Below are positions 14,359 through 32,511 of a stretch of 64,000 nucleotides of DNA, in pieces. Every line of letters begins with the position of its first letter. Position 1 is the stretch's first letter. The notes beneath the pieces are model-generated. The model saw only the letters and a program-made list of their open reading frames with translations, had not been told where the DNA came from and did not search any database. The stretch spans positions 1,426,001 to 1,490,000 of the forward strand of contig NZ_QASA01000001.1 of NCBI RefSeq assembly GCF_003340495.1. Reading direction: 5' to 3'. Position numbers and translations under genes: made by a program. Origin of the DNA: Adhaeribacter pallidiroseus. Its GTDB lineage: Bacteria; Bacteroidota; Bacteroidia; Cytophagales; Hymenobacteraceae.

Positions 14359-15432
14359 TCAGGTTTGGGGCAAAGCCGAACCCAAATAAGAATTTACATT
14401 TTCACGGGTAATAATTTCCAGGGGCAGTAAATTGCGGGCGGGTGGTTCTTTTTTTAAAAATAAAAAGTTGGCCAGGTGCTGAATGCCCAGAAAAGTCTGG
14501 TGTTTGGAATTTTGATTAATCAGAAAGTCGATGGTACCGGCCTGCAAGTGCTCAACATTTTCGGGCAGTAAATCATAACCGATCAGCCGCAAATCTTTAT
14601 TCCCCAGCTTTTCTAAAATACCGGCAATGGTAGAAGTACCTTTAGAAGTAGTTACAAAAATTCCTTTTAGCTGATTGTCTTTCAACAGGCCCTGTACTTG
14701 CTTTAATAACTTCGCTTCTTCGGTTTCGGTAATATCCAGCGCCATGGTTTTAAATTCCGGCTGGTTTTTAACTTTAAAAAAGTGCTCAAAGCCTCGTTGT
14801 TTATCTAGCAAATGGATGGAGTTTTCACTGGCTTCGTTTACGTGCAACACCGCAAAGGTTCCCGGTAAATCTTGACCTAAACTCATTAATTCGGCGGCTA
14901 CCCGGCCACTGTCGAATAAATTCTGCCCGATAAAACTAAGCGGGTGGATTTCCGGGATGTTGGTATTAAAAATAACAAAAGGTATTTTACTGGCCTGGCA
15001 CTGGTGCAGAAAATGCAAGGCCTCGTGGTAAAAAATGGGCGCAATTACAATGCCGTCGGGTTTGGTAAGGTGCGCCGATTGGGTTAGTTGCAGAAAGGAT
15101 TCTTTGTGGTACAGGTCAAAAAAATGCGTTTCCACGTACACATCGTATTGGTCCCATTCGGCGGCAGCGTGCCGGATACCAATGTGCGCCTGGGCCCAGT
15201 ATTCGTCCTGGGCAGGATCCGGAATAATAACCGCAATCCGGAAAACTTTTTTGGTACCCAGGGTGCGGGCAATTAAATTAGGTTTATAGTCAATCTCGCG
15301 CAAGGTGCTGAGTACTTTCTGCAAAGCTTCTTCCGAAACTTTGCCGCGGTTATGCAATACCCGGTCGACGGTACCTATGGAAACCCCCGCTAACTGCGCA
15401 ATATCCTTGATTCTAATATTCTTTTTTTCCAT
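14359..15432 (-). CDS. LacI-family transcriptional regulator
   Basis: A 357-aa LacI-type repressor or activator. The N-terminal helix-turn-helix is IKDIAQLAGVSIGTVDRVLH (residues 7-26), with the hinge helix LIARTLGTKK, followed by a periplasmic-binding-protein-like sugar sensor (IAVIIPDPAQDEYWAQAHIG onward). It is divergent from a SusC/SusD pair with 529 bp between them. That spacer holds two 14-bp palindromes with the central CG typical of LacI operators, and two more of the same kind lie upstream of the fucosidase genes at 27.1 kb. I infer that it senses a sugar released from fucosylated glycans. Autoregulation is likely, since the twin sites also lie 224-258 bp upstream of its own start. 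Confidence 0.92.
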   Translation of the reverse strand: MEKKNIRIKDIAQLAGVSIGTVDRVLHNRGKVSEEALQKVLSTLREIDYKPNLIARTLGTKKVFRIAVIIPDPAQDEYWAQAHIGIRHAAAEWDQYDVYVETHFFDLYHKESFLQLTQSAHLTKPDGIVIAPIFYHEALHFLHQCQASKIPFVIFNTNIPEIHPLSFIGQNLFDSGRVAAELMSLGQDLPGTFAVLHVNEASENSIHLLDKQRGFEHFFKVKNQPEFKTMALDITETEEAKLLKQVQGLLKDNQLKGIFVTTSKGTSTIAGILEKLGNKDLRLIGYDLLPENVEHLQAGTIDFLINQNSKHQTFLGIQHLANFLFLKKEPPARNLLPLEIITRENVNSYLGSALPQT

Positions 15433-15655: not shown

Positions 15656-15669
15656 TGTTAGCGTACACA
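15656..15669. promoter_or_regulatory. LacI-type operator 1 (TGTTAGCGTACACA)
   Basis: A near-palindrome with central CG fitting TGTKWNCGNACACA, where the perfect form is TGTGTNCGNACACA. Its centre is 21 bp (two helical turns) from operator 2. Confidence 0.65.
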
Positions 15670-15676
15670 ACTACCA

Positions 15677-15690
15677 TGTTAGCGCACACA
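15677..15690. promoter_or_regulatory. LacI-type operator 2 (TGTTAGCGCACACA)
   Basis: Same pattern as operator 1, with 12 of 14 positions shared with the palindrome at 27113. Located about 15 bp upstream of the putative -33 element of the susC promoter. Confidence 0.65.
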
Positions 15691-15961: not shown

Positions 15962-18900
15962 ATGAAAAACAACTACAAATTTTATCTTCTCGGGGCTTTA
16001 CTCTTGTGCTGCCAGGTAAGCTGGGCCCAGTTCGTGGTTAAAGGCCGGATCACCGACGAGGCCCAACAACCCATGCCGGGCGTAACGGTATTGTTGAAAG
16101 GCACCACTACCGGTACTGCTTCTAATAACGAAGGAACGTATTCTCTGCAAGTACCTAACGGCAGCGGAACTTTGGTTTTCTCGTTTATTGGCTACGTTAC
16201 CAAAGAAATTGCCATTAATAACCAAGCTACCCTTAACACCAGCCTGGCCTCGGATGCCCAATCGCTGAACGAAGTGGTGGTTACCGCCTTAGGAATTAAG
16301 CGGGAACAAAAAGCTTTAGGCTACGCCGTCAGTACGGTTACTTCCGAGCAAATCAATCAGGCCGGAAATACTAATTTTGCCTCGGCCCTTTATGGGAAAG
16401 CACCTGGCGTACGCATTAACACCGCGCCCGGCGGTGCTACCGGAGCTGCAAACGTGCAGATTCGGGGAATCAATTCTTTAAATTACAATAACAACCCGAT
16501 TTACGTGGTTGATGGTATTGTAATCCGGAACACCAGCGAAACAGGTAGCACGCGTTTTAACAACGATGGTTACTATAGCGACACTAAAATCCGGGGAAAC
16601 GGTATTCTGGATATTAATCCGGCGGATATTGAATCCTTAAGCATCCTGAAAGGCGCGAGTGCCTCGGCTTTGTATGGTTCCGAAGCGGCTAACGGCGTTA
16701 TTGTTATTACCACCAAGAAAGGTACCAAGGGCAAAGGATTGGGAGTAGATTTAAATTACGTTTTTAATACCGAAGAAATTGCTTTTTCTCCGGACTTCCA
16801 GAATACCTACGGACCAGGTTACGACCGGGAGACCAACTTGGCTAACGGGGCCGATGAAGAAGGCTGGATTGCCGTAGATACCGATGGCGATGGGGTAAAA
16901 GAAAGTAAGCGGCCTTATTTTCGGGCTTACGGCCAGTTTGGACCTAAAATGGAGGGACAAATGGTGCCGTGGTGGGATGGTACTACCCGGGCTTACTCGG
17001 CCAAACCCGATAATTACAAAGATTTGTACCGTCGGGGTTACAATTCTTCTTTAAACGTGGCCTTGTCTAATCAAACGGATAAGTCGGCTTATCGTTTTTC
17101 GTTCACGCGTTTAGATAACGAGGGCATTCAGCGGGGTGGTAAGTTAGAACGTAACACATTTAACCTGAACAGTAATTTAAAACTGAATGATAAGGTTAAT
17201 ACCGACGTTATTATCAACTATGTGAACTCCCATGTTCATAACCGCCCAGAACAAATTAACCGGATAACCGCCAACTACGGAGGTTTTTTTAGCCGCGCCG
17301 ATGATATGTCCGCGTATTTAGATAAATACCAAACTTCACAAGGTTATAAATACGTGCCGTATGATCAACCGCAGCGTAATCCGCAGGAAGCCCTGAAGTA
17401 CAACATCCGGGCTTACGATGTCCTGGATTTCTTATGGCGCCAGGTTAAAAACAACGAAGATGAGTACCAGGACCGGTTAATTTCGAGTGTTACGCTGAAC
17501 TATAACGTAGCCAAAAATTTAAAATTCCGGGCCCGGGTAGGAAACGACTTTACCAGCGTCAACATCGAGAATCAGCAATTTAATGAGTATCCCTTGGTAT
17601 TTAACGGTACCAGCAGCACCGGTAATTACAGCATCAACAACGGCCGGTACTCGGTGCTTTATACCGATGAGCTGTTAACTTATACTAACCAGATCTCGGA
17701 AGATTTTGATTTTTCGGTTAGCGGTGGTTTTCAGGGCCGGAAAGAAACTTTACGGTACCAAACATCCGGCACCAACGGTGGTTTAGTGGTTGAAAACTGG
17801 TTTAACTTAGCGAACTCTAAATCATTTGGCACAACCTCTGCCTGGCGCAAAGAATTATTAAAATACGCTTTCCTGGGTATTGCCAACGTTAGCTACAAAG
17901 ATTTCTTGTTTTTAGAAGGTACCGCTCGTAAGGAATATTCTTCTACGTTAGCTCCGGGCAATAATAGTTATTTTTACCCATCGGTAAACGGTAGCTTTGT
18001 ATTTACCCAGGCCTTGCAATTACCAGCTTTTTTAAGTTTCGGTAAAATACGGGCCGGCTACGGCGTGGTGGCCAACGCTCCGGAAATCTACGCCGCTAAT
18101 ATTGCCTACGACCAAAATACCATTCAGTACGGGGGCGGGGGCGTACCTGTATTAAGTGCTAAAAGTTCCTACGGCAATAACAACATCCGCCCCGAAGAAA
18201 AACGGGAATTGGAATTTGGTTTAGAGACCCGTATCCTGAATAATAAATTCGGGATCGACTTAACTTATTACACCAACCGGATGATCGACCAGATTATTCA
18301 GATGCAACTGCCTACCAGCACAGGAGCCAGCAACGTGTTATCTAATTTAGGAGAACTCCGCAGCTACGGATGGGAATTAGGCTTAAATGCCACTCCGGTT
18401 TCTAAAGCATTCCGTTGGGATGCTCAATTAAACTTTGCCATAAACCGGACCAAAGTTCAGAAATTAATGCCCGGCCTGGATCGCTTGACTTATTACGATG
18501 GCGACGGAGGTGCCGTTAGAATGTACGCCGAAGTGGGCGAATCTTTAGGTAACATCTACGTGCATCCGCGGGCTACCGACGCCAATGGAAATTATATCAT
18601 TGACGAAGGCGGATACTATACCTTCAGTACCGACTACGTTAAAGTGGGCAATACCTTACCCAAAGTTATCGGGGGTTTAACCAACACGTTTTCTTATAAG
18701 AATTTATCGTTAAACGTATTGGTGGATTACCGTTTTGGCGGTAAATTAGTATCTACCCCGTTACTTTACGGCAAGGGCGCTGGTTTGTACGAGGAAACCA
18801 TGCAATACCGCGATGCTGAAAATGGGGGACTCCCGTATTACCTTGATGCCGCAAATAACAACCAAAAAGTACTTTTACCGGATCATAACAGCGCGGCGCC

Positions 18901-19297
18901 AAACGGGGCCAAAGTATACCACGATGGGGTTTTACTCGAAGGAGTTACTGCCGATGGTCAGCCCAACCAAACTATTGTGGATGCTCCTAATTATTACCTG
19001 AATACATTTACCTGGAGTTCTGGCTGGTACGAAAACGGCGCGGTTTTTAAAAATTCTTACATTAAAATGCGGGAATTAACTTTAGGTTATAACCTGCCGC
19101 AAGCAGTTGCTTCTAAACTGAAATTCCAGAATATCCGGGTTTCCCTGATTGGTCGCAACTTGTTTTACTTCTGGAAAACTTTGCCGCATTTAGATCCGGA
19201 AACTGGTATTGGCACGGCCTGGAACCGCCAAGGCGTTGATGAAGGTACCATGGCTCCTACGCGCAGCTACGGCGTATCTCTGAACGTGAGCTTCTAA
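15962..19297 (+). CDS. SusC/RagA family TonB-linked outer-membrane protein
   Basis: Outer-membrane TonB-dependent glycan importer of 1111 aa. Signal peptide ends near SWAQ (about residue 22). A carboxypeptidase-regulatory-like domain (VVKGRITDEAQQPMPGVTVL) follows, then SLNEVVVTALGIKREQKALG, the plug (VQIRGINSLNYNNNPIYVVD; GASASALYGSEAANGVIVIT) and the barrel ending in TRSYGVSLNVSF. It is the larger type of SusC. It is divergent from the LacI-type regulator and 32 bp upstream of its SusD partner, so the two are surely co-transcribed. The twin CG-palindromes 270-306 bp upstream predict control by that regulator. Confidence 0.96.
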   Translation: MKNNYKFYLLGALLLCCQVSWAQFVVKGRITDEAQQPMPGVTVLLKGTTTGTASNNEGTYSLQVPNGSGTLVFSFIGYVTKEIAINNQATLNTSLASDAQSLNEVVVTALGIKREQKALGYAVSTVTSEQINQAGNTNFASALYGKAPGVRINTAPGGATGAANVQIRGINSLNYNNNPIYVVDGIVIRNTSETGSTRFNNDGYYSDTKIRGNGILDINPADIESLSILKGASASALYGSEAANGVIVITTKKGTKGKGLGVDLNYVFNTEEIAFSPDFQNTYGPGYDRETNLANGADEEGWIAVDTDGDGVKESKRPYFRAYGQFGPKMEGQMVPWWDGTTRAYSAKPDNYKDLYRRGYNSSLNVALSNQTDKSAYRFSFTRLDNEGIQRGGKLERNTFNLNSNLKLNDKVNTDVIINYVNSHVHNRPEQINRITANYGGFFSRADDMSAYLDKYQTSQGYKYVPYDQPQRNPQEALKYNIRAYDVLDFLWRQVKNNEDEYQDRLISSVTLNYNVAKNLKFRARVGNDFTSVNIENQQFNEYPLVFNGTSSTGNYSINNGRYSVLYTDELLTYTNQISEDFDFSVSGGFQGRKETLRYQTSGTNGGLVVENWFNLANSKSFGTTSAWRKELLKYAFLGIANVSYKDFLFLEGTARKEYSSTLAPGNNSYFYPSVNGSFVFTQALQLPAFLSFGKIRAGYGVVANAPEIYAANIAYDQNTIQYGGGGVPVLSAKSSYGNNNIRPEEKRELEFGLETRILNNKFGIDLTYYTNRMIDQIIQMQLPTSTGASNVLSNLGELRSYGWELGLNATPVSKAFRWDAQLNFAINRTKVQKLMPGLDRLTYYDGDGGAVRMYAEVGESLGNIYVHPRATDANGNYIIDEGGYYTFSTDYVKVGNTLPKVIGGLTNTFSYKNLSLNVLVDYRFGGKLVSTPLLYGKGAGLYEETMQYRDAENGGLPYYLDAANNNQKVLLPDHNSAAPNGAKVYHDGVLLEGVTADGQPNQTIVDAPNYYLNTFTWSSGWYENGAVFKNSYIKMRELTLGYNLPQAVASKLKFQNIRVSLIGRNLFYFWKTLPHLDPETGIGTAWNRQGVDEGTMAPTRSYGVSLNVSF

Positions 19298-19329
19298 ACC
19301 AGAAATTTTAAAATTTAAACAGATTCATC

Positions 19330-20922
19330 ATGAAAAGAATAATTATAAATATCGGTTGCGCTTTATCGCTACTCGCAGGGGTTAGTGCGTGTACCGACAA
19401 GCTGGAAGAACTTTACGTTGACCCTGGCACCACATCGGCCCCATCCATTGAAAAGTTTTTTACCCGTATGCTCGACAATGGTCGGGTGCGGCCCAATTAC
19501 TGGGAAATCCGGACATTTGCGTTACCGCACACGGCTAAATATACCCAAACGGCCAGTTTTGTAAATGGCACCAAAATGTACCAGCAGCAGCAATCGTATC
19601 TGCAAAACCGTTGGGACGATTATTATACCCCTGGTGGGAATGGTGGCGGCATTGTGGCCCAGTACCGCGAAATTGAGAAAACTTACGCAGGCTTAACGGA
19701 TGCCGAAAAAGCAGATGCCGAGGTTTTTGTGCAGGCTTCTAAAGTAGTGTTTCTGGACCAAACCGCTCAGATGGTAGATCTGTGGGGTGATATTCCGTTC
19801 TCGGAGGCAGGTGCTTTAAATTTAACCGGTCAGGTAGTACGACCTAAATTTGATGATGCTCGCCAGGTGTACGAGACGGTACTAACCGGTTTAAAAGAAG
19901 CTTCTGATTATTTTGCAACCGCTGAGTTAGGTTCCGTTTCTAAAGTTACTTTTCAGAAGCAGGACATTATGCTGGGTGGTGATTTAAACAAATGGCGCCG
20001 CTATACTAACTCATTGCGGTTGCGGTTGCTCATGCGTCTTTCGTTTGTAGATGAAACCAAAGCCAAAACCGAAGTTGCCGCTATATTGGCAGATCCGGTG
20101 AAGTATCCTTTGGTGGACGAAGCGAAATACGACGTTTTACTGAAACCCCTGGATAATAACACCAACAGTTTAGAAAGCGCTTTAACGGAAGTATCGGCTC
20201 AAGTAGCGCCCGGAACTATACTGGAAGGTTTAATGAAGCCAACGAACGATCCCCGTATTCCGGTAATGTTTGACAAAGGCGTGCGTACCGAAAACGGTAA
20301 TTCCGTTCGCAACGAAGATTATTTTGGTCTTCCGGTTAATTTGGCTTCGGCGGAACAGGAAACAAACATTAGCCAGGGCCGGTACGCGGTGCTGGACTCG
20401 GCTACTTTTATTCGCAACAGCAAACTGCCGGGCATTGTATTTACATCTGCCGAAGTGTCTTTCCTAAAAGCCGAAGCGTTTGAACGTTGGGGCGGGGGAG
20501 ATGCCCTAATGGTTTATAATATGGGAGTGCAGCAATCCATCACTTTTTATTATTACCTCAATAGCTTAAGCGATCTGGCAGGTAGCAATCCGCTGGATAC
20601 CCCTACGGCCGCTGCAGTTACCGAATATTTAGCTAATCCTACTATTGCATACGCTGGTGCTCAGAACGAAAAATTAAGTAAAATCTGGACGCAGAAATGG
20701 GTACATTTTGGCTTTTTGCAATCGGTACAAAACTGGGCGGAAGTAAGAAGAACTAAAACCCCTGGATTAGCTTTCCAGGAAGATAGCAGCACGCCCGCCG
20801 AAAAATTACCACCTTCCCGGTTGATTTACCCGGGTAACGAAAAAAGCTTAAATGGTGAACATTACAGTCAGGTAGCCGCTAAAGATTTACCTACCACGCG
20901 GATTTTCTGGGATGTAAGGTAA
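19330..20922 (+). CDS. SusD/RagB family (SusD-like 2) outer-membrane lipoprotein
   Basis: Glycan-binding surface lipoprotein partner of the SusC just upstream. Lipoprotein signal MKRIIINIGCALSLLAGVSA with the lipid-bearing Cys at residue 21. The body fits the SusD-like 2 group: TAQMVDLWGDIPFSEAG near residue 150, NKWRRYTNSLRLRLLMRLS near 220, and the C-terminal PPSRLIYPGNEKS with a final ARIFWDVR-like end (TTRIFWDVR). Length 530 aa is normal. A 26-bp perfect hairpin with an A/T tract directly follows the stop, closing the transcript. Confidence 0.94.
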   Translation: MKRIIINIGCALSLLAGVSACTDKLEELYVDPGTTSAPSIEKFFTRMLDNGRVRPNYWEIRTFALPHTAKYTQTASFVNGTKMYQQQQSYLQNRWDDYYTPGGNGGGIVAQYREIEKTYAGLTDAEKADAEVFVQASKVVFLDQTAQMVDLWGDIPFSEAGALNLTGQVVRPKFDDARQVYETVLTGLKEASDYFATAELGSVSKVTFQKQDIMLGGDLNKWRRYTNSLRLRLLMRLSFVDETKAKTEVAAILADPVKYPLVDEAKYDVLLKPLDNNTNSLESALTEVSAQVAPGTILEGLMKPTNDPRIPVMFDKGVRTENGNSVRNEDYFGLPVNLASAEQETNISQGRYAVLDSATFIRNSKLPGIVFTSAEVSFLKAEAFERWGGGDALMVYNMGVQQSITFYYYLNSLSDLAGSNPLDTPTAAAVTEYLANPTIAYAGAQNEKLSKIWTQKWVHFGFLQSVQNWAEVRRTKTPGLAFQEDSSTPAEKLPPSRLIYPGNEKSLNGEHYSQVAAKDLPTTRIFWDVR

Positions 20923-21933: not shown

Positions 21934-23526
21934 TTATTTATCCCACCAAACCCGGGAGGTTAGCAAGTCACCGCCTTGGAGATTAGCTACTCCGGACTGT
22001 AAACCAGCCGGATTGTTGGAAATTTCGGAAGCTGGGTAAATCATGCGGCGCGGAATAGTCGCGTTGGTGATGTTACCCGGGTAATTTACCGGGGTTAATT
22101 CCGGATAACCCGAACGGCGCCAGTTAAACCAACCTTCAATAAAGTTAAAGGTAGTGGATGTTTCCAGCCAGTATTGTTCGTTTATTTGTTTTAACGGGTT
22201 AACGGCTCCTAACGGATTAGCGGTTACGTAAGCCGATATGGCGGCTTCGCTTACGGTTGCTGCTGCGTCTATTTGCGATAAAGATTGCATGGCTCCCCGT
22301 ACCCCGTTAGCGTAGTGGGTAGCGGCTGTACCGCCTACGGTCCAACCGCGGTTAGCGGCTTCGGCTAATAACAATTCGGTCTCGGCGTAGGTTAATACAA
22401 AGTTTGGCGCATTACGTTTCATGTACACATTTACGCGGGGACGGGAGTACTTACCCAACGGGGCAATGTCGCTTCCGGTGCCGGTGGCTCCCGGATAGTT
22501 AGGATGCTGGCGGATATCAAAAGCGCCACCCGATAAGTCGTAACCGTTCGGCATTCCCACTTGTAGCGTTGGATCGGTGTTGCCGGTGGCACTTTGGTTG
22601 GCATTGGCAGTAGCACCTGCTCCCGGTATTTCCCCAATAACTCCTAAACGCGGATCATTCTGGGTCCGTAAGTAATCAATTAAAGTTTTGCTCCATCTTA
22701 CTTCCCGGAAATCATCCGGGGTAAGCAAAGCACCCGTGGTACTGTTCTGGGTATCGCCATTAGCGGCATCGGTTCTGACCAAGGCATTGTCGTTGTAACT
22801 GGCCAGGGTACCCGCGGCGGCAGCTTTTTCGGTCCAGGATTTGGCCGTAGCCGGATCAACTTTCGTTAAACGCATGGCTACCCGCACCATTAAAGAATAA
22901 CCAAACTTTTTCCATTGCGCTACATCCCCGGCGTAAAATAAATCGCCGGTAGGTTTTGGCGCTGCTGCATCCAGGCTGTTAATGGCCGCTTCCAGTTTAG
23001 TTAACAAGTCCAGGTAAATGTCCTGCTGCTTGTCGTATTTAGGAGCAGTTACGCCTTCCGCAGCTTGTAAGGCTTCGGTATACGGAATATCGCCGTAGGT
23101 ATCGGTAATGCGCTGAAAAATCAATACCCGCATAATATTACTAACCGCAATTACATTTTTAAAACGCGCCGGATCCTGGGTGTTTGCAATTAAAATGGCC
23201 TGGTTCAAACGGCTCAAAGAGGTGTATCCATCGTTAAATATCCGGCCCTGGTAATCGGTAAAATTACCGGCATTCACATATTTGTCGCCGTTACCGTAAT
23301 AATTGTAGGTGCTGGCCAAAGCCTGAATACCGGTAGCCTGATACAATAATTGCGCATAACCGGTGTTCGAAAATCCCAGCTGGGCATCGGCTAGTAAAAA
23401 GTTCGGATTAAACTGGGTTGCATTCGCCGCATTCGGATTGGTATTTACTTCGTCTAAGTGGTCCTCGGAGCAGGCCGGGGCCAAAAGCACCGAGGCAAGG
23501 GCGATGTATATAAAAGTCTTTTTCAT
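21934..23526 (-). CDS. SusD/RagB family (SusD-like 2) outer-membrane lipoprotein
   Basis: Surface glycan-binding lipoprotein of 530 aa. Signal MKKTFIYIALASVLLAPAC with lipid Cys at residue 19 and the common EVNTNPNAA start of the mature chain. DTYGDIPYTEALQAAEGV and AQWKKFGYSLMVRVAMRL, and the C-terminal IPRRMIYPASE and LTSRVWWDK, are SusD-like 2 hallmarks. It lies 4 bp after the broken SusC gene. It is intact, so it may still be made even if the SusC partner is not. The first SusD (19330) is a distant paralogue and the two genes are convergent. Confidence 0.93.
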   Translation of the reverse strand: MKKTFIYIALASVLLAPACSEDHLDEVNTNPNAANATQFNPNFLLADAQLGFSNTGYAQLLYQATGIQALASTYNYYGNGDKYVNAGNFTDYQGRIFNDGYTSLSRLNQAILIANTQDPARFKNVIAVSNIMRVLIFQRITDTYGDIPYTEALQAAEGVTAPKYDKQQDIYLDLLTKLEAAINSLDAAAPKPTGDLFYAGDVAQWKKFGYSLMVRVAMRLTKVDPATAKSWTEKAAAAGTLASYNDNALVRTDAANGDTQNSTTGALLTPDDFREVRWSKTLIDYLRTQNDPRLGVIGEIPGAGATANANQSATGNTDPTLQVGMPNGYDLSGGAFDIRQHPNYPGATGTGSDIAPLGKYSRPRVNVYMKRNAPNFVLTYAETELLLAEAANRGWTVGGTAATHYANGVRGAMQSLSQIDAAATVSEAAISAYVTANPLGAVNPLKQINEQYWLETSTTFNFIEGWFNWRRSGYPELTPVNYPGNITNATIPRRMIYPASEISNNPAGLQSGVANLQGGDLLTSRVWWDK

Positions 23527-23530
23527 TCGA

Positions 23531-26500
23531 TTATTTAAATTTAACGTTTAAAGTAAAGCCATACGTTCTGGCAAACGGCAGCGAACCACCTTCTACGCCG
23601 GCGTAGGTTACTAAAGATGAAATGGTGTTTTCGGGATCGATGTTGTCGGTATGTTTCATGAGCGTAAATAAGTTACGTCCCACCAACGACAAACTAATCG
23701 CCTGGAACGGCGTTTTAGTTAAGATGCCTTGCGGTAAGCTATAGCCGAGGGTTAACTGACGGAATTTAATAAAGCTACCATCCAGCACCGATACCGCGGA
23801 TACGTTATTAGCCAACTGCGGATAATAAATGTAAGCCGGTACCACAGTTTCGTTTACGCTACCATCTTCTTTCACACCAGCGGCTACTACTCCGGTTTCA
23901 CGACCCACTAAGGTGGCTTGGTTTAAGCCCCGTACGTACGAGTAATGCTCCGTTGCCGAAAGTACTTTATTGTTGTACTTAAAGTCGATTAAGAACGACA
24001 GGTTAAAGTTTTTAAACGAGAAATCGTTATTCCAACCGCCGTACAGGTTTGGTAAACCAGATCCCATCGGTTTTAAATCGCCCCGTAAGGGAACACCATT
24101 GGCGCCAACAATTACATTCCCGTTGGCATCGCGCTTGTAATCATAAGCCATAACCTGGGCAATTGGTAAACCTTTCACGATGGAAATATTACCGTTTAAT
24201 GGGCGGTAAGTACCGGTTTGCAGCGGCGATGGATTCTCCGATTGGTCAATTTCTAAAACTTCGTTGCGCAGTTTGGTAAAATTAAAGGAGGTATTCCAGT
24301 TGAAAGCAGAACGGATAGGGGTACCCGATACCATTAACTCAATACCCCGGTTGGAAGTAGAACCTAAATTAACCGAACGGCTGGTAAATCCAGTAGAAGA
24401 AGACAAGCTGGCCGATACAATTTCACCTTCGGTTTTACGGTCAAAGTACGTTACGTCTAAACCTAAACGGTTATCCAGAAACTTCATTTCGGTACCCACT
24501 TCAAATTCGTTCAGGCTGAAAGGTTCCAGGTTCGCGTTTGGTAACTTGGCATCAAAAGAACCGCGGGGGGTGCCGTTAATAGGGTTGTTAACGTTGTAAT
24601 AAAAAGCAGTTTGGTACGGTTGGGCGGGCTCACCGCTGGTTTCGGCGTAAGATGCCCGGATTTTACCGTAGTTTAAAGCCGGGGTATTCAGCAGATCTGA
24701 GAATACAAAGCTAGCCGATACCGAAGGCGTGAATAAGCTCCGGTTGCCCCGTGGTAAAGAAGAGAACGTATCGTAACGGCCAGTGGTGCTTAAAGTTAAA
24801 TACTTGTAGCTGAAATCGGCGGTATAATACACCGAAGGCGTTTCCAAAGCCGAATACAGGTACTCGGAGTTCCGGGTGCGGGTGTTGGTTGGGGTATACA
24901 AATAAGGTACAATAAACTGGCCACCGTATAAACGAGTACTTTCCGAATTATTGCGCCGGAAGTTACCTCCTACGCTGGCATCGATCGAGAAATCGTCGTT
25001 GATGTTTTTGCTGAAAGATAACAACGCATCGGTGTTTAATTCTAAACGGGTGCCCTGGTATAAAGCTTCCAGAGATCCTTCGCCATTAGATGAAAATAAA
25101 GTACCGTAAGGAAACACCGTAAAGCGGCGGTCGCTGGAAAAGTCGTAACCAATCCGGGCTTGTAACGATAGAAAATCAAAGAACTGGTAACGGGCCGAAA
25201 TAGCCGAAATTAAACGCCGACGGGTGTTATCATTTTTAAATTGATTTACCACAAACCAAGGGTTAGTAGCGTAGATATCATCGCTCCAGGCTCTTTCTAA
25301 ACCATTATTGGTAGCATCGTAACCCGGCTTCAGGCTCGCCTGATCTACGTTGGTAGCCAAAAACGTAATGTTATTAGCGTTCATAACGGCATCGCTCAAA
25401 TACGGACGGTTTTTGTCTTTTTGGTCGATGTAATTAGCCATTAAGTTAAAGCTTAACTTTTTGGTTAATTCGTAAGAAGTGTTAAAGTTTACGGTTTTCC
25501 GGTCTAAGCCGCTGTTGCGCAAAATCGACTGACCATCCAGATTTGAAAGCGATAACCGGTAAGTACCGCGGTCGCCGCCACCCGAAATAGCGAGGGTGTT
25601 GGTCCAGGAAGCAGCCGTGCGGTAGAAATTTTCAATATTATTTTTTACCGCGGAGTAAGGATGCAGTTGCCCGTCGGATTGAATGGTGGGGGTACCATCT
25701 AAACGTTCGCCCCAGGAATTACGGCCGGATAATGCCGCGGAAGCCACATCCACTGGTCTTTTGCCTTGGGTTCCCTGGCCGTATTCGTATTGCCAATCGG
25801 TATTATCCACCGCCCGGTCGAACTGTAAGTTGGTGTTGTATTCAATAGTGGTTTTTCCTTTCACGCCGCTTTTGGTGGTTATCTGAATAACCCCGTTAGC
25901 AGCCCGGGAGCCGTACAAAGCCGAAGCTGTAGAACCTTTTAAAACAGTCATGGTTTCGATATCGTCCGGATTAATGTTACCGATCCCATCGCCCTGGTCG
26001 GCACCGCCCCACTCGCCGGAACTTCCCCGGTTGGTATTATCCATCGGCACACCGTTTATAACAATCAGGGGCGAAGAACTACCGGAAAACGAAGTAACCC
26101 CGCGAATATTAATGCGGGCCGAAGAACCTGGGCCGCCGCTAGTACCTGCCACGTTTAAACCCGAAACCCGACCCGATAAAGAGTTGGCCACGTTACTTTC
26201 GCGGGCTACGTTTAATACTTCGCCACCTACTTTAGAAACGGAATAACCCAGTTTACGCTCGTCTTTTTAATACCGAGCGCGGTAACTACTACTTCCTGCA
26301 AAGCGGTGGCATCGCTTTCGAGCACAACGTTTATTACCGACCGGTTATTTACCGGCACGGTCTGGTTTTTATAGCCAATGTAGGAAAAAATAAGGGTGCC
26401 ATTGGCCGGCACATCGATCTGGAAGTTGCCATCTACATCCGAAATAGCTCCTTGGGTGGTGCCGCTAATTTGGATACTAACGCCCACCAAGGCGGTGTTA

Positions 26501-26604
26501 TCAGAGCCAGTTACCTTGCCGGTAACCTGGTTACCCTGCGCAAAGCCGTATAATTGGCTCAGCAGCAAGAGTAAAGTAAAAAGGGGTAAAGCTTTTTTTA
26601 GCAT
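23531..26604 (-). pseudogene. SusC/RagA family TonB-linked outer-membrane protein, interrupted by a one-base frameshift
   Basis: The first frame (26604-26227, 125 aa) has a signal peptide ending near YGFAQ, the regulatory-like domain (GNQVTGKVTGSDNTALVGVS) and EVVVTALGIKK, then runs off into unrelated residues and stops. The other frame continues the protein exactly: just after the break it reads ERKLGYSVSKVGGEVLNVAR, then ANSLSGRVSGLNVAG, the plug (INIRGVTSFSGSSSPLIVIN; SALYGSRAANGVIQIT) and a full barrel to TYGFTLNVKF. Adding one base in the A-tract (26264-26268 on the plus strand) would restore a normal 1024-aa SusC. Either the gene is a recent pseudogene or the base is a homopolymer sequencing error. 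An internal ATG at 26191 could only give a protein lacking its signal peptide. Confidence 0.9.
26264..26268 (-). other. Frameshift site in susC (A5 tract)
   Basis: On the coding strand GGTATTAAAAAGACGAGCG should, by comparison with the homologous IKREQKALGY of the first SusC, read ATT AAA AAA GAC GAG CGT. One A is missing from the run. Confidence 0.8.
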
Positions 26605-27080: not shown

Positions 27081-27094
27081 TGTGTTCGGACACA
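27081..27094. promoter_or_regulatory. LacI-type operator 3 (TGTGTTCGGACACA)
   Basis: Matches TGTGTNCGNACACA with only the positions beside the centre breaking symmetry. Its centre is 32 bp (three helical turns) from operator 4. It lies 451 bp upstream of the fucosidase start and 477 bp upstream of the broken susC. Confidence 0.65.
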
Positions 27095-27112: not shown

Positions 27113-27126
27113 TGTGTGCGTACACA
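27113..27126. promoter_or_regulatory. LacI-type operator 4 (TGTGTGCGTACACA)
   Basis: The best copy of the motif. It shares GCGTACACA exactly with operator 1 at 15656, eleven kilobases away, linking the two transcription units to one regulator. Confidence 0.68.
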
Positions 27127-27544: not shown

Positions 27545-28984
27545 ATGCGTTACATTTTAAGCTGTTTACTGGTAATTACCTGCCTGCTCAAGAGCTGGGG
27601 ACAGCAGCATAATACGTCGCAAACTTACGTGGTGCCCACCGACCCCCAGGTACAGGCCAAACTGGCTACCTGGCAGGATTTAAAATTTGGTTTGTTTATG
27701 CACTGGGGTACTTACAGCCAATGGGGTATTGTGGAAAGCTGGAGCATTTGCCCCGAAGACGAAGGCTGGACACAACGCAAAGGTCCTTATGCAGCGGATT
27801 ATAACACTTACAAAAAAGCCTACGAAAACATCCGGACTGAATTTAATCCCGTGCAATTTAACCCGGAAAAATGGGTGGCGGCGGCTAAAACCGCCGGCAT
27901 GAAATACATGGTTTTTACCACCAAGCACCACGATGGTTTTGCCATGTTTGATACCAAAGAATCCGACTACAAAATCACCGACTCCAAATCGGCTTTTGCC
28001 GCTAACCCCAGGAGTAATATTACCAAAGAGGTTTTTAATGCTTTCCGGAAAGAAAACTTTTTAATCGGGACTTACTTTTCTAAACCCGACTGGCACAACG
28101 AAAATTACTGGTGGCCTTACTTTCCGCCCAAAGACCGCAACGTAAATTACGATCCGGCTAAATACCCGGAACGCTGGCAAAAATTTAAAAATTTTACCTA
28201 TAACCAGATTAGCGAGCTGATGACTGGTTATGGACCGGTGGATATTTTGTGGCTGGATGGCGGCTGGGTACGCCCAAAAAACACCATCGACTCCAGCGTA
28301 GATTGGCAAAAAGCTATTACCTACGAGCAGGATGTAGACATGGCCCGGATTGCCAAAATGGCCCGCGAAAAGCAACCCGGCTTAATTGTAGTGGACCGCA
28401 CCGTGGCCGGGGAATTCGAAAATTACACGACACCGGAACATACCGTGCCCGATAAACCGCTTAACCATCCTTGGGAAACCTGCATGACCATGGGCGACTC
28501 CTGGAGTTATGTGCCCAATGATACCTATAAAACCACGAACCAGTTAATTCAATTGTTAGTAAAAATAGTATCGCGCGGGGGTAACTTTTTACTCAACATC
28601 GGACCCAGCCCTAAGGGCGATTGGGCTCCGGAGGCCTACAGCCGTTTGGCGCAGATTGGCGACTGGATGCAAATAAACGGAGAAGGTATTTATAATTCCC
28701 GCGCCGTAGCGCCCTACGAATTTAAAAATATTTACTACACCCGGTCCAAAGATCAAAATACGATCTACGCTTTTTACTTATCCGATAAAGAACAGGTAAA
28801 CTTGCCGGCTACGCTGGAAATTCCTTTGCCAAACATAACACAAGTAAAAAAAGTGAGCTTATTGGGCCAGCCGGAAAAACTGAAATGGCAATACCAGGGT
28901 AAAAGTTTACGGGTGCAACTTTCCGGCAAGCTTCAGAACAAGGCAGATTTAAAGCAGGCAGCCACTTTCAAGATTGAATATTAG
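27545..28984 (+). CDS. GH29 alpha-L-fucosidase, secreted
   Basis: Hydrolyses terminal alpha-L-fucose from glycans. I take ATG 27545 as the start because it gives a signal peptide (MRYILSCLLVITCLLKSWGQ, cleavage near residue 20); the frame upstream to 27482 is leader. The 479-aa protein shows GH29 signatures: LKFGLFMHWGTYSQWG (about 46-61), KYMVFTTKHHDGFAMFD (120-136), and VDILWLDGGW with the likely nucleophile Asp238, and SRGGNFLLNIGP later. A beta-sandwich C-terminal part follows. The acid/base residue cannot be fixed by eye. It is the first of a plus-strand group with ROK kinase, CBM9-like protein and glycosylasparaginase, and lies downstream of LacI-type operators 3 and 4. Confidence 0.93.
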   Translation: MRYILSCLLVITCLLKSWGQQHNTSQTYVVPTDPQVQAKLATWQDLKFGLFMHWGTYSQWGIVESWSICPEDEGWTQRKGPYAADYNTYKKAYENIRTEFNPVQFNPEKWVAAAKTAGMKYMVFTTKHHDGFAMFDTKESDYKITDSKSAFAANPRSNITKEVFNAFRKENFLIGTYFSKPDWHNENYWWPYFPPKDRNVNYDPAKYPERWQKFKNFTYNQISELMTGYGPVDILWLDGGWVRPKNTIDSSVDWQKAITYEQDVDMARIAKMAREKQPGLIVVDRTVAGEFENYTTPEHTVPDKPLNHPWETCMTMGDSWSYVPNDTYKTTNQLIQLLVKIVSRGGNFLLNIGPSPKGDWAPEAYSRLAQIGDWMQINGEGIYNSRAVAPYEFKNIYYTRSKDQNTIYAFYLSDKEQVNLPATLEIPLPNITQVKKVSLLGQPEKLKWQYQGKSLRVQLSGKLQNKADLKQAATFKIEY

Positions 28985-29087
28985 CGTTAGGCACGAGGAA
29001 ATTTTTTACTAAATGCTGATGCTGGCTTTATTTTTTTAAATTTTAAGCTTGGCTCTTTGTCCGGTTTCGCCTATATAATTCCGCATC

Positions 29088-29969
29088 ATGGAAAGAATAG
29101 TATTAGAAGAAAAAATTATTGGTTTAGATATTGGCGGTACCAAAATCCATTTGGGTTTAGTGCAGCAAGGTGCTATTCTGCGCGATATTAAACTGCCCAC
29201 TTCGGCCCAGGCCGGTCGCGAGCAGATCTTGAGCGAAATCCGGCAGGGCATTCAGGAGCTCATGGAGCCCGGCGTAACGGGGATTGGCATTGGGGTGCCC
29301 GGTTTAGTAGATGAGGAAAAAGGATTGGTGTTTGATGTGCAAAATATTCCTCATTTTACCCAGGTGCCGATAAAGCAATACCTGGAAGATTATTTCGGGA
29401 AGCCGGTTTACTTAACCAACGATGCCAACAGCTTTATTCTGGGCGAGAAATTATACGGACGGGCGCAGCCCTATAAAAATGTGGTTGGTTTAACCTTGGG
29501 TACCGGTTTAGGCGGCGGCATTATTTTAAATAATCAACTGTATTCCGGGGCTTTTTCCAGCGCGGGCGAGTTTGGGGGCATTCCTTACCAAGGTAAAACC
29601 ATGGAAGATTATTGCAGCGGCAAATTTTTTCCTTCGCAATGCGGATTAACGGGGCCGGAAGTTCACGACCGGGCGACTAAAAATGATCCGGAAGCTTTAT
29701 CGATTTTACACCAATTTGGGGAGCACCTCGGCGAAGCCATTAAAGTAATTATGTATGCCTTAGCTCCGGAAGCTGTTTTTCTGGGCGGCTCGGTAAGTAG
29801 TTGTTTTCCGTATTTCAAAGAAGGGATGTGGAATCGTGTGCAGCAGTTTCCGTACGAAAAAGTCCGAAACAATTTAATTATTGAGCGTTCCCGGATGAAC
29901 GACGGCGCTATTTTAGGAGCGGCCGCCCTGGTACACATGAAAAGCAAAGAAGTAGCTGCTAAATGGTAG
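29088..29969 (+). CDS. ROK family sugar kinase
   Basis: A cytoplasmic sugar kinase or kinase-like protein of 293 aa. It has the N-terminal phosphate loop IIGLDIGGTKIHLGLV (about residues 10-25), GIGIGVPGLVDEE, the sugar-binding LTNDANSFILGE (Asn/Asp pair), and LGTGLGGGIILN. The usual ROK zinc motif CxCGxxGCxE is degenerate here (FPSQCGLTGPEVHDRA keeps one Cys). It begins 103 bp after the fucosidase gene. In this setting N-acetylglucosamine or glucose are reasonable substrates, but specificity cannot be read from sequence. Confidence 0.88.
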   Translation: MERIVLEEKIIGLDIGGTKIHLGLVQQGAILRDIKLPTSAQAGREQILSEIRQGIQELMEPGVTGIGIGVPGLVDEEKGLVFDVQNIPHFTQVPIKQYLEDYFGKPVYLTNDANSFILGEKLYGRAQPYKNVVGLTLGTGLGGGIILNNQLYSGAFSSAGEFGGIPYQGKTMEDYCSGKFFPSQCGLTGPEVHDRATKNDPEALSILHQFGEHLGEAIKVIMYALAPEAVFLGGSVSSCFPYFKEGMWNRVQQFPYEKVRNNLIIERSRMNDGAILGAAALVHMKSKEVAAKW

Positions 29970-29994
29970 CCCGCAAATACGTAAAACGCTTGGC

Positions 29995-31113
29995 ATGACG
30001 AATAATTTTTTAAAAATACTAATTACCTGTTTATTCTTGGGGTTGGCAGAATCTGGCTGGGCACAGGCAAATATTAGTGGCAAAGAAGCGCTATTTACGG
30101 AGCCCCAACGCTACACTACTTACTTTGCCCCCAACCCGCCGGTAGTGGATGGCAATATAACCGAAGCTGCCTGGCAAGCGGCCCCCTGGACCGACTACTT
30201 TACCGATATTGAAGGCGACCAAAATCCCCGGCCAACTTATAAAACCCGGGTTAAAATACTGTGGAACGATACCTGTTTGTTCCTGGCGGCCGAATTAGAG
30301 GAGCCCCAGGTGTGGGCTACTTTAAAAAAGCACGATGCCATTATTTACCAGGACAACGATTTTGAAATTTTTATCGATCCGGATAATGATACCCATCATT
30401 ATTTCGAAATAGAAGTAAATGCCCTGAATACCTTGTTTGATTTATACCTCGACAAACCGTATCGCAACGGCGGGTTGGCGTTAATTCCGTGGCGGGCCGA
30501 AGGATTACAGTCGGCGGTTCAGGTGCAAGGCACATTGAACCAGCCCCAGGACATTGATAAAAGCTGGACCGTGGAAATGGTTATTCCCTTCCGGACTATG
30601 AAAACCGGCAAAATAACCACTCCCTCCGATAAAGATTTCTGGCGTATAAATTTTTCGCGGGTGCATTGGGATACCTCCATTAAAAATGGCCTTTATGAAA
30701 AAATTACCGATTCGCAGGGTAAACCTAAGCCCGAACATAATTGGGTCTGGTCGCCGCAAGGCCTGATAAACATGCATTTCCCGGAGCGCTGGGGTTATTT
30801 GTTTTTTAGCCGGCAACCTGCTCCTAAAGAACCGGCCGCTGTTTTTACTTTGCCCACCGCGGAGAAGCAGAAAAAATACCTCTGGAATATCTACTACCTT
30901 CAAAAAGAATATTACCAGAAACACCGGCAATACGCCCGTACTCTCCTGGATTTAGCTGCCCCCGCCAATAAGTTATTGCCGCCGGAAACAAGTCCGGAAA
31001 TAAAATTAGAAGCTACCACCCACCAGTTTATGGCGTATTGCACCGGGCCGGATAACCTGACTTATACCATTAACCAGGATGGACACCTGCAAAAATTGAA
31101 TTTTAAAAAATAA
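29995..31113 (+). CDS. Carbohydrate-binding family 9-like secreted protein
   Basis: A 372-aa exported protein with signal peptide ending at SGWAQ (about residue 24). Residues about 45-240 fit the CBM9-like fold: PPVVDGNITEAAWQAAPWTD, VKILWNDTCLFLAAELEEPQ, and the acidic DNDFEIFIDPDNDTHHYFEI, which resembles calcium- and ligand-binding positions of CBM9. The C-terminal part (about 270-372) is unassigned. It starts 25 bp after the ROK gene, so the two are co-transcribed. Such proteins sit in many Bacteroidota sugar-utilisation operons; this one probably binds glycan fragments in the periplasm or at the surface. Confidence 0.85.
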   Translation: MTNNFLKILITCLFLGLAESGWAQANISGKEALFTEPQRYTTYFAPNPPVVDGNITEAAWQAAPWTDYFTDIEGDQNPRPTYKTRVKILWNDTCLFLAAELEEPQVWATLKKHDAIIYQDNDFEIFIDPDNDTHHYFEIEVNALNTLFDLYLDKPYRNGGLALIPWRAEGLQSAVQVQGTLNQPQDIDKSWTVEMVIPFRTMKTGKITTPSDKDFWRINFSRVHWDTSIKNGLYEKITDSQGKPKPEHNWVWSPQGLINMHFPERWGYLFFSRQPAPKEPAAVFTLPTAEKQKKYLWNIYYLQKEYYQKHRQYARTLLDLAAPANKLLPPETSPEIKLEATTHQFMAYCTGPDNLTYTINQDGHLQKLNFKK

Positions 31114-31479
31114 TTATTAACAGCAGATTTCTCCGGAAAAGCTGCGGGGTAGGTTATTTATTATTTAGGCTGAGTGACAAGGCAACTTGCTTTTGGTTAC
31201 CCGGTGAAAATTTTAAAAACAGGTAGCCTGGCTGCACCCGAGGTATTCGGTAATAAGTACAACGCTGAAGTTCGATTGGAGGAGAAATTATGATAACTTT
31301 AAACCTAACACCAGAAAACTTCTACTTTAGCTGATGCAAGCATCGCTACCAGCAACGTTTCGGGTGCGTGCTTGTTTTATACTTTGGATACCTGAATTAT
31401 AAACGGATTACCTGAGCAGGCATTATTAGTATCACAACGACTAACTCCATACCGTCCACTCCTTACATTTTAAAATTTT
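31114..31479. other. 366-bp spacer before the glycosylasparaginase gene
   Basis: No gene seen. An AT palindrome ATTTTAAAATTTT (31467-31479) directly abuts the ATG at 31480, and TACTTTG near 31380-31386 is a weak -7-like element. Confidence 0.5.
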
Positions 31480-32511
31480 ATGCTTTTTCGTAGCCGCCGT
31501 CAATTTTTGAAAGCTTCTTCCCTAGGCCTGTCGCTTTTAGCTGTAGATCGTAGTGCCTTGGCCCGCCGTTTAGCCCCAAGTAATCCAGCACCCGCGTCGC
31601 CTATTGTTATTTCTACCTGGGATTTTGGAATACCGGCCAACCAGGCAGCCTGGAAAATCTTGAGCCAGGGTGGCCGGGCGCTCGATGCCGTAGAAGCCGG
31701 GGCTCGCGTGCCGGAAGCCGATTTAAACAACCACAGCGTAGGCCGCGCCGGCTATCCCGACCGGGACGGCCACGTAACCCTGGATGCCTGCATTATGGAC
31801 GAAAAGGGGAATTGCGGTGCCGTGGCGGCCCTGGAAAACATTGACCATCCGATTTCGGTAGCGCGGTTGGTAATGGAAAAAACGCCGCACGTATTTTTAG
31901 CCGGCGAAGGAGCCATGCAGTTTGCTTTGGAAAACGGATTTAAAAAAACCAAGCTACTCACCCCCGATTCGGAGAAAGCCTGGCGAGAATGGCTGAAAGA
32001 AGCCAAATACAAACCCACCATCAACGTCGAAAATAAACTGTACCAACCCGTTGATAAACTACCCGGCAATAAGTTAAACCACGACACCATCGGCATGATC
32101 GCCCTGGATGCCAAAGGAAATTTAGCGGGAGCCTGTACCACCAGTGGCATGGCTTTTAAACTGCACGGCCGGGTAGGGGATAGCCCCATTATAGGGGCAG
32201 GATTGTACATTGATAACGAAGTGGGCGGCGCTACTTCCACGGGCGTAGGTGAAGAAGTAATCCGGAACGTGGGCAGCTTTTTGGTAGTAGAATTAATGCG
32301 CCAGGGTTACACCCCCGAAGCCGCCTGCAAAGCAGCCGTGCAGCGCATCATTGATAAAAAACCCGCCAAAGCCAAAGAAATTCAGGTTGGCTTTTTAGCC
32401 CTAAATAAAAAAGGCGAGTATGGCGCGTACGCCATCCAGGGTGGTTTTTCGTACGCGGTATGCCACGCGCAAAAACAAGATTTGCTCATTAAAAGCAAGA
32501 GTAGCTATTAA
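31480..32511 (+). CDS. N4-(beta-N-acetylglucosaminyl)-L-asparaginase (glycosylasparaginase), Tat-exported
   Basis: An N-terminal-nucleophile hydrolase that splits GlcNAc-Asn, the last link of an N-glycan. The N-terminus has a twin-arginine signal (SRRQFLKASSLGLSLLA), implying export folded. Features of the family: VISTWDFGIPANQAAWKIL, ALDAVEAGARVPE, and the autoprocessing site HDTIGMIALD with nucleophile Thr203 preceded by Asp202, then GRVGDSPIIGAGLYIDNEVG for substrate binding. Length 343 aa is typical. It follows the fucosidase/ROK/CBM9 group. The eukaryotic enzyme needs core fucose removed first, which fits the linked fucosidase. It could also act on other asparagine conjugates. Confidence 0.9.
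   Translation: MLFRSRRQFLKASSLGLSLLAVDRSALARRLAPSNPAPASPIVISTWDFGIPANQAAWKILSQGGRALDAVEAGARVPEADLNNHSVGRAGYPDRDGHVTLDACIMDEKGNCGAVAALENIDHPISVARLVMEKTPHVFLAGEGAMQFALENGFKKTKLLTPDSEKAWREWLKEAKYKPTINVENKLYQPVDKLPGNKLNHDTIGMIALDAKGNLAGACTTSGMAFKLHGRVGDSPIIGAGLYIDNEVGGATSTGVGEEVIRNVGSFLVVELMRQGYTPEAACKAAVQRIIDKKPAKAKEIQVGFLALNKKGEYGAYAIQGGFSYAVCHAQKQDLLIKSKSSY

Follow-up and report, generated by a model that had tools for sequence, protein, structure and literature searches.

Among the described systems closest to the present locus, the LacI-family regulator NagR of Shewanella is reported to be released from DNA by N-acetylglucosamine (GlcNAc) in gel shift assays (PMC3223726). In Algoriphagus, the accessible part of the published account describes a LacI-family regulator of uronate use, UxuR2, and names no LacI regulator for GlcNAc (PMC5507952). 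For the family at large, the distances between tandem operators are reported to peak at 22 and at 32 bp, which was interpreted as cooperative binding, and pairs of sites two and three helical turns apart are known to mark the cooperation of two LacI-family dimers (PMC4052901). A search of the open-licence literature returned no account of a Cytophagales LacI-family regulator of N-acetylglucosamine.

The window, as the whole 64-kb stretch of Adhaeribacter pallidiroseus DNA analysed here is called, carries four CG-centred 14-bp sites in two pairs. These are most readily understood, at a probability of roughly 85%, as paired operators of the LacI-family regulator encoded at 14359–15432, which would cooperatively repress genes for N-glycan use and be released by an effector of the GlcNAc type. 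This case is built on a tree of LacI proteins, a binding-site matrix derived from other genera, and conservation in a sister species. The first pair lies between the divergent lacI (minus strand) and susC1-susD1 (15962–20922), and the second between the divergent susC2/susD2 (minus strand) and a run of GH29, ROK kinase, CBM9 and glycosylasparaginase genes (27545–32511):

14359–15432, minus strand: LacI-family regulator (PF00356 helix-turn-helix and PF13407 Peripla_BP_4; helix-turn-helix region SIGTVDRVLHNRG)
15656–15669, unstranded: putative operator 1a, TGTTAGCGTACACA, between divergent lacI and susC1 (sequence, matrix, sister-species conservation)
15677–15690, unstranded: putative operator 1b, TGTTAGCGCACACA, 21 bp from 1a (evidence as for 1a)
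15962–19297, plus strand: SusC-like TonB-dependent importer, SusC1 (family domain search)
19330–20922, plus strand: SusD-like surface lipoprotein, SusD1 (family domain search)
21934–23526, minus strand: SusD-like surface lipoprotein, SusD2 (family domain search)
23531–26604, minus strand: SusC-like importer, SusC2 (broken frame, two ORFs: 26227–26604 and 23531–26191)
27081–27094, unstranded: putative operator 2a, TGTGTTCGGACACA, between divergent susC2 and the predicted fucosidase operon (evidence as for 1a)
27113–27126, unstranded: putative operator 2b, TGTGTGCGTACACA, 32 bp from 2a (evidence as for 1a)
27545–28984, plus strand: GH29 alpha-L-fucosidase (family assignment)
29088–29969, plus strand: ROK-family sugar kinase (no substrate assigned by the family models)
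29995–31113, plus strand: CBM9-domain protein (family domain search)
31480–32511, plus strand: glycosylasparaginase, N(4)-(beta-N-acetylglucosaminyl)-L-asparaginase (best solved relatives)

The regulator joins an N-terminal PF00356 domain (1.3e-14, 54.1 bits, cut-off 27) to a C-terminal PF13407 domain (3.8e-33, 115.6 bits, cut-off 35.1), an architecture that, like PF00356 with PF00532 or PF13377, marks the LacI/GalR family. None of the 18 matched NCBIfam models for named LacI equivalogs (RbsR, CcpA, PurR and others) was reached at cut-off, the best scoring 75.8 against 382 bits. The protein at 31480–32511 is far closer to solved glycosylasparaginases (2.8e-120) than to the best isoaspartyl peptidase (7.3e-38). 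The frame of susC2 is broken near its start (window 26191–26604) and is a single 1024-aa ORF in the sister species, the break reflecting either recent pseudogenization or misassembly of an A-rich run.

Direct inspection places all four CG-centred 14-mers at the positions given in an earlier note on this DNA, and the start-to-start spacings within the two pairs are the 21 and 32 bp recorded there. The description of all four as palindromes suits the second pair, in which 6 of 7 symmetric positions match at each site, but is slightly generous for the first, because only 4 and 5 of 7 do so. Within the 64-kb window, exact matches to the core TGTNNNCGNNNACA are confined to these four. The consensus of the corresponding sites in other genera, TGTGTGCGCACACA, is an even palindrome with a central CG, as in LacI operators, the CG having been preset in the search core.

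A consensus taken from the window's four sites, TGTKWNCGNACACA, was scanned over the 6.43-Mb genome and matched exactly at five distinct places: the four in the window and one at C1:28667. Frequent random matches across the genome, which the earlier note had named as a danger to its own proposal, are therefore not a feature of the full consensus. When one mismatch is allowed, 20+21 genome matches compare with 18+19 for a reversed control, and the bare core TGTNNNCGNNNACA occurs at 59 places genome-wide against 33 for its control; the full consensus is thus the only informative form. A matrix derived from 61 sites at 30 loci, all outside the window's genus (the window, L070, L088, L107, L109, L120, L122, L124, L153 and one site word being left out), yields TGTGTGCGCACACA and places the four sites at ranks 1–4 in the window, with 23.4, 20.6, 19.2 and 17.3 bits. 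The fifth-ranked position reaches 5.3 bits, a gap of about 12 bits, and one simulated Markov-1 genome of equal size held 0 to 2 positions at the scores of the four. Because the search pattern fixed the TGT/CG/ACA core, only the remaining six positions of the matrix count as independent evidence; those in its left half show clear preferences (G 78%, T 79%, G 56%). Plainly accidental matches do occur elsewhere in the genome, among them apparently TGTGGGCGTACACA, which sits within a gene and, at 18.4 bits, exceeds the score of the fifth exact site, but the rank, pairing, conservation and phylogenetic linkage of the window's four leave only a vanishing probability that they arose by chance and have no function.

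In the sister species (G291), the LacI protein is 87% identical to that of the window, and both pairs are kept with both spacings (21 and 32 bp), even though the two intergenic regions are no more than 49% and 41% identical in alignment. The fifth exact-consensus site, at C1:28667, lies 1.4 Mb from those of the window and precedes a GH20 hexosaminidase gene by about 120 bp. It scores 14.4 bits in the cross-genus matrix, a level that 9 positions of one simulated genome reached, and the case for it stands on its position and its conservation in one sister species, where the GH20 orthologue (93%) has a single putative operator at equal distance (133–134 bp, start to start).

The window's genome has seven LacI genes, one of which (L034) has this fifth site just downstream of it, before GH20, so that the sites could be imagined as operators of another paralogue, such as L034 itself or the SusCD-linked L035. 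This appears very improbable. In the sister species, a SusC-like gene and a 554-aa ORF stand upstream of the GH20 operator, with no LacI gene there; because the site is kept nonetheless, the local paralogue of the window's own genome is not its necessary partner, and the GH20-adjacent LacI was rejected as the binder. The susC gene of L035 is preceded by different CG-centred inverted repeats, and across genera the presence of the motif follows the LacI clade to which the window protein belongs. In this second LacI-SusCD locus (L035:7340–7480, C1:3.02 Mb), the repeats lie in the lacI–susC interval, around GGGAACGTTCCCG and TGTTCCGGGAACGATGCC, and are possibly the operators of that paralogue.

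Across the order, 70 of 390 genomes have a relative of the window LacI (P0001) at E<=1e-40, and 11 of 390 have the 21-bp pair pattern, for which a reversed control gave one (G261). The pair directly adjoins the LacI orthologue in 8 of these 11 genomes, and in a further one (G286) lies about 5 kb from it within one gene cluster; of the remaining two matches, one falls in a tandem-repeat array (G170) and the other on a contig that has no lacI match (G248). The ten genomes that match P0001 best comprise nine with the pair and a tenth (G049) with a single TGTGTGCGCACACA, and among the other 60 the pair was found in G248 only. Fisher tests gave p=2e-7 for pair against LacI match and p=2e-14 for group against site, values that overstate certainty because related genomes are treated as independent. 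The array of G170 (contig C104, 47426–47586), in a genome without a P0001 match, consists of TGTAAACGCTTACA-type palindromes at 21-bp spacing, and may be a repeat or may serve some other regulator as a multi-site operator.

Further loci were gathered from named genomes. A single-protein query against their contigs found no relative, and an alignment query supplied the best 80 of 569 relatives, giving 99 loci from which L034, L071 and L073 had been left out. Intergenic calling set aside sites overlapped by predicted ORFs, such as both sites of L110 and L111. In these 99 loci, the best 80 of 569 relatives included, the core motif occurs 86 times in intergenic DNA, against 0–8 times for nine control palindromes, none of which formed a site pair within 60 bp in the same loci. 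Removal of the site-bearing duplicates L120, L122 and L124 left 96 loci, again including those best 80 of 569, of which 36 have at least one site (76 sites in all); the site-less duplicates L123, L125, L126 and L133 (of L083, L084, L082 and L089) are still among them, and some of the loci kept come from near-identical species (L079, L080). The deduplicated loci, with the same best 80 of 569, contain 26 neighbouring pairs, spaced by 21 (n=19), 22, 23, 31 (2), 32 (2) and 56 bp, such that 25 of 26 fall at 21–23 or 31–32 bp, close to the 22 and 32 bp of LacI-family tandem sites.

The maximum-likelihood tree of 101 distinct LacI proteins (identical ones counted once, midpoint root) contains a group of 34 rows holding the window LacI, picked from the tree afterwards and supported at 99/99. 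Within 500 bp upstream of lacI, the word TGTGTGCGCACACA is found in 29 of these 34 rows and in 6 of the 67 outside; as a label on the tree it requires 10 changes, compared with 29.4 in shuffles, none of 500 of which was as low. Its occurrence falls as the proteins diverge from P0001, from 15 of 18 at 50% identity or more, through 12 of 16 at 45–50% and 7 of 29 at 40–45%, to 1 of 38 below 40%. Pairing is common but not general: among the 70 genomes matching P0001 at E<=1e-40, 60 show no 21-bp pair, and of the 35 LacI genes in the tree that carry the motif, only 21 have at least two sites. In a mainly Hymenobacter group the word is absent near lacI in 13 of 14 rows and the helix-turn-helix residues are nearly unchanged; relatives of this type include L082–L084, L123, L125 and L126. 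With the pairs kept in the sister species and the word following the LacI clade across Bacteroidota, the earlier proposal that the sites are operators of the neighbouring LacI gains strength as a prediction. The proposal that one regulator links susCD1, susCD2 and the fucosidase–glycosylasparaginase unit likewise finds support, in two conserved pairs and the clade linkage, and its predicted reach now extends to GH20.

The genes beside the operators point to a common substrate. Besides GH29 and glycosylasparaginase in the window and GH20 elsewhere in the genome, relatives contribute nagB, NagP-like, ROK and GH92 genes, as expected of an N-glycan/GlcNAc regulon: in other families, the genes preceded by the word encode a NagB/PIG-L fusion (NF002557), a ROK kinase and, as a pair, GH92 and NagP-like proteins, the second of which scores 390 bits, under the model's 625-bit cut-off. 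In G253 a GH3 gene directly follows lacI and the word lies between GH29 and GH20 genes, while in G286 it lies between a GH29 gene and a GH20–glycosylasparaginase pair. Pontibacter silvestris (L105) brings together a fucosidase (50%), SusCD (63/55%), the 21-bp pair, LacI (60%) and glycosylasparaginase (62%). The nagB homologue of the window's own genome, at C1:5.88 Mb, is far from every exact-consensus site. In the related genome G140 (L224:2621–10594), a 414-aa ROK-like gene is followed by genes for a NagB fusion, a ROK kinase, a NagP-like protein and a GH20 enzyme, and the LacI operator word is missing, an arrangement that suggests other control of the nag core in that family.

Taken together, the operator-linked gene set fits a pathway that takes fucosylated N-glycans apart step by step and uses the GlcNAc thereby freed. 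A different fucose-containing oligosaccharide as substrate or effector is unlikely, yet is the most serious of the competitors: for susCD1 an N-glycan substrate is a prediction, and in Chryseolinea and Ohtaekwangia the neighbours of lacI are unrelated (queuine transferase, LptF/G, glycosyltransferase), so that regulon content is not uniform. Against it, the operator is common to glycosylasparaginase, GH20 and GH29 and, in relatives, to GH92 and nag genes, a set that N-glycans fit best.

For the preferred reading, paired operators of a GlcNAc-responsive LacI protein, a mechanism may be outlined. At each pair, two LacI dimers would occupy adjacent sites on one face of the helix, separated by two or three of its turns, and keep lacI itself, susCD1, susCD2 and the putative fucosidase–kinase–CBM9–glycosylasparaginase operon repressed; the single operator would act in the same way on the GH20 hexosaminidase gene 1.4 Mb away. 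On entry of N-glycan fragments, the Peripla_BP_4 domain would bind N-acetylglucosamine or a derivative of it, phosphorylated or Asn-linked, and the effector-bound LacI would leave the DNA, so that uptake and degradation of (fucosylated) N-glycans are switched on jointly. To judge from gene content, the effector is most probably GlcNAc or a derivative. By analogy, repression relieved by such an inducer would be the likeliest mode, because GlcNAc frees NagR and GlcNAc-6-P induces NagI. For the earlier suggestion of looping across 11 kb, the analysis gave evidence neither for nor against; the 21–23 and 31–32 bp spacings fit two side-by-side dimers per promoter region, and looping between the two loci was dropped as unnecessary.

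It is rather improbable, though less so than control by a paralogue, that the regulator is instead an activator or acts in both ways. The window's operators lie far from the start codons, at about 220–480 bp, as against the 30–140 bp reported for most LacI sites (PMC4052901), and no TAnnTTTG box emerged at a fixed offset from the operators: 93 operator–gene orientations at 42 loci (some overlapping) gave no clear peak, in AT-rich DNA and without a shuffle control. Conversely, the box abuts or overlaps the operator in several relatives, as would be expected for blocking, and LacI-family members are described as mostly local negative regulators (PMC13055268).

The paired LacI-operator arrangement is of a well-known type, of which the present gene set is a new example. 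What is new, in our moderately confident estimation, is a LacI clade, spread over several Bacteroidota families and undescribed in the literature searched, that would read TGTGTGCGCACACA, often in double form at 21 bp, and control N-glycan use, with nagB in the window's genus placed under other control and the import and glycan-cutting genes kept at separate chromosomal places. The word TGTGTGCGCACACA was not found in the open-licence literature. Environmental Bacteroidota contain many SusC/SusD loci without an assigned regulator or substrate. A regulator–operator pair recognisable from sequence would allow scattered loci to be joined into one regulon and would provide a predicted substrate for SusC/SusD pairs, here N-glycans, and the LacI orthologues offer a ready system for studies of cooperative binding at paired operators.

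In comparison with known systems, the window's sites share with those of the LacI-family survey the even palindrome, the central CG and the tandem arrangement, whereas that survey covers one Bacteroides group only, and its accessible part does not mention the present clade or word (PMC4052901). Bacteroides NanR (ROK) and HTCS regulators at GlcNAc and N-glycan/mannan loci serve related substrates in the same phylum but belong to other families, and the four LacI regulators listed in the part of that account consulted act on uronates (PMC3878776). Stenotrophomonas NagI is a LacI-family repressor of nag genes with GlcNAc-6-P reported as inducer; it is proteobacterial, and its likeness to the window protein is one of family and of the effector predicted here (PMC13055268). 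The Shewanella NagR regulon differs in phylum and has nagB among its members, while none lies at the exact-consensus sites of the window regulon, which instead has SusC/SusD, GH29 and glycosylasparaginase. As described in the available parts of the two reports (PMC3223726, PMC2996990), it nevertheless places an outer-membrane receptor, NagP, a kinase, a NagB-type deaminase and hex under LacI-family GlcNAc control, a likeness to the predicted window regulon in gene content and proposed effector.
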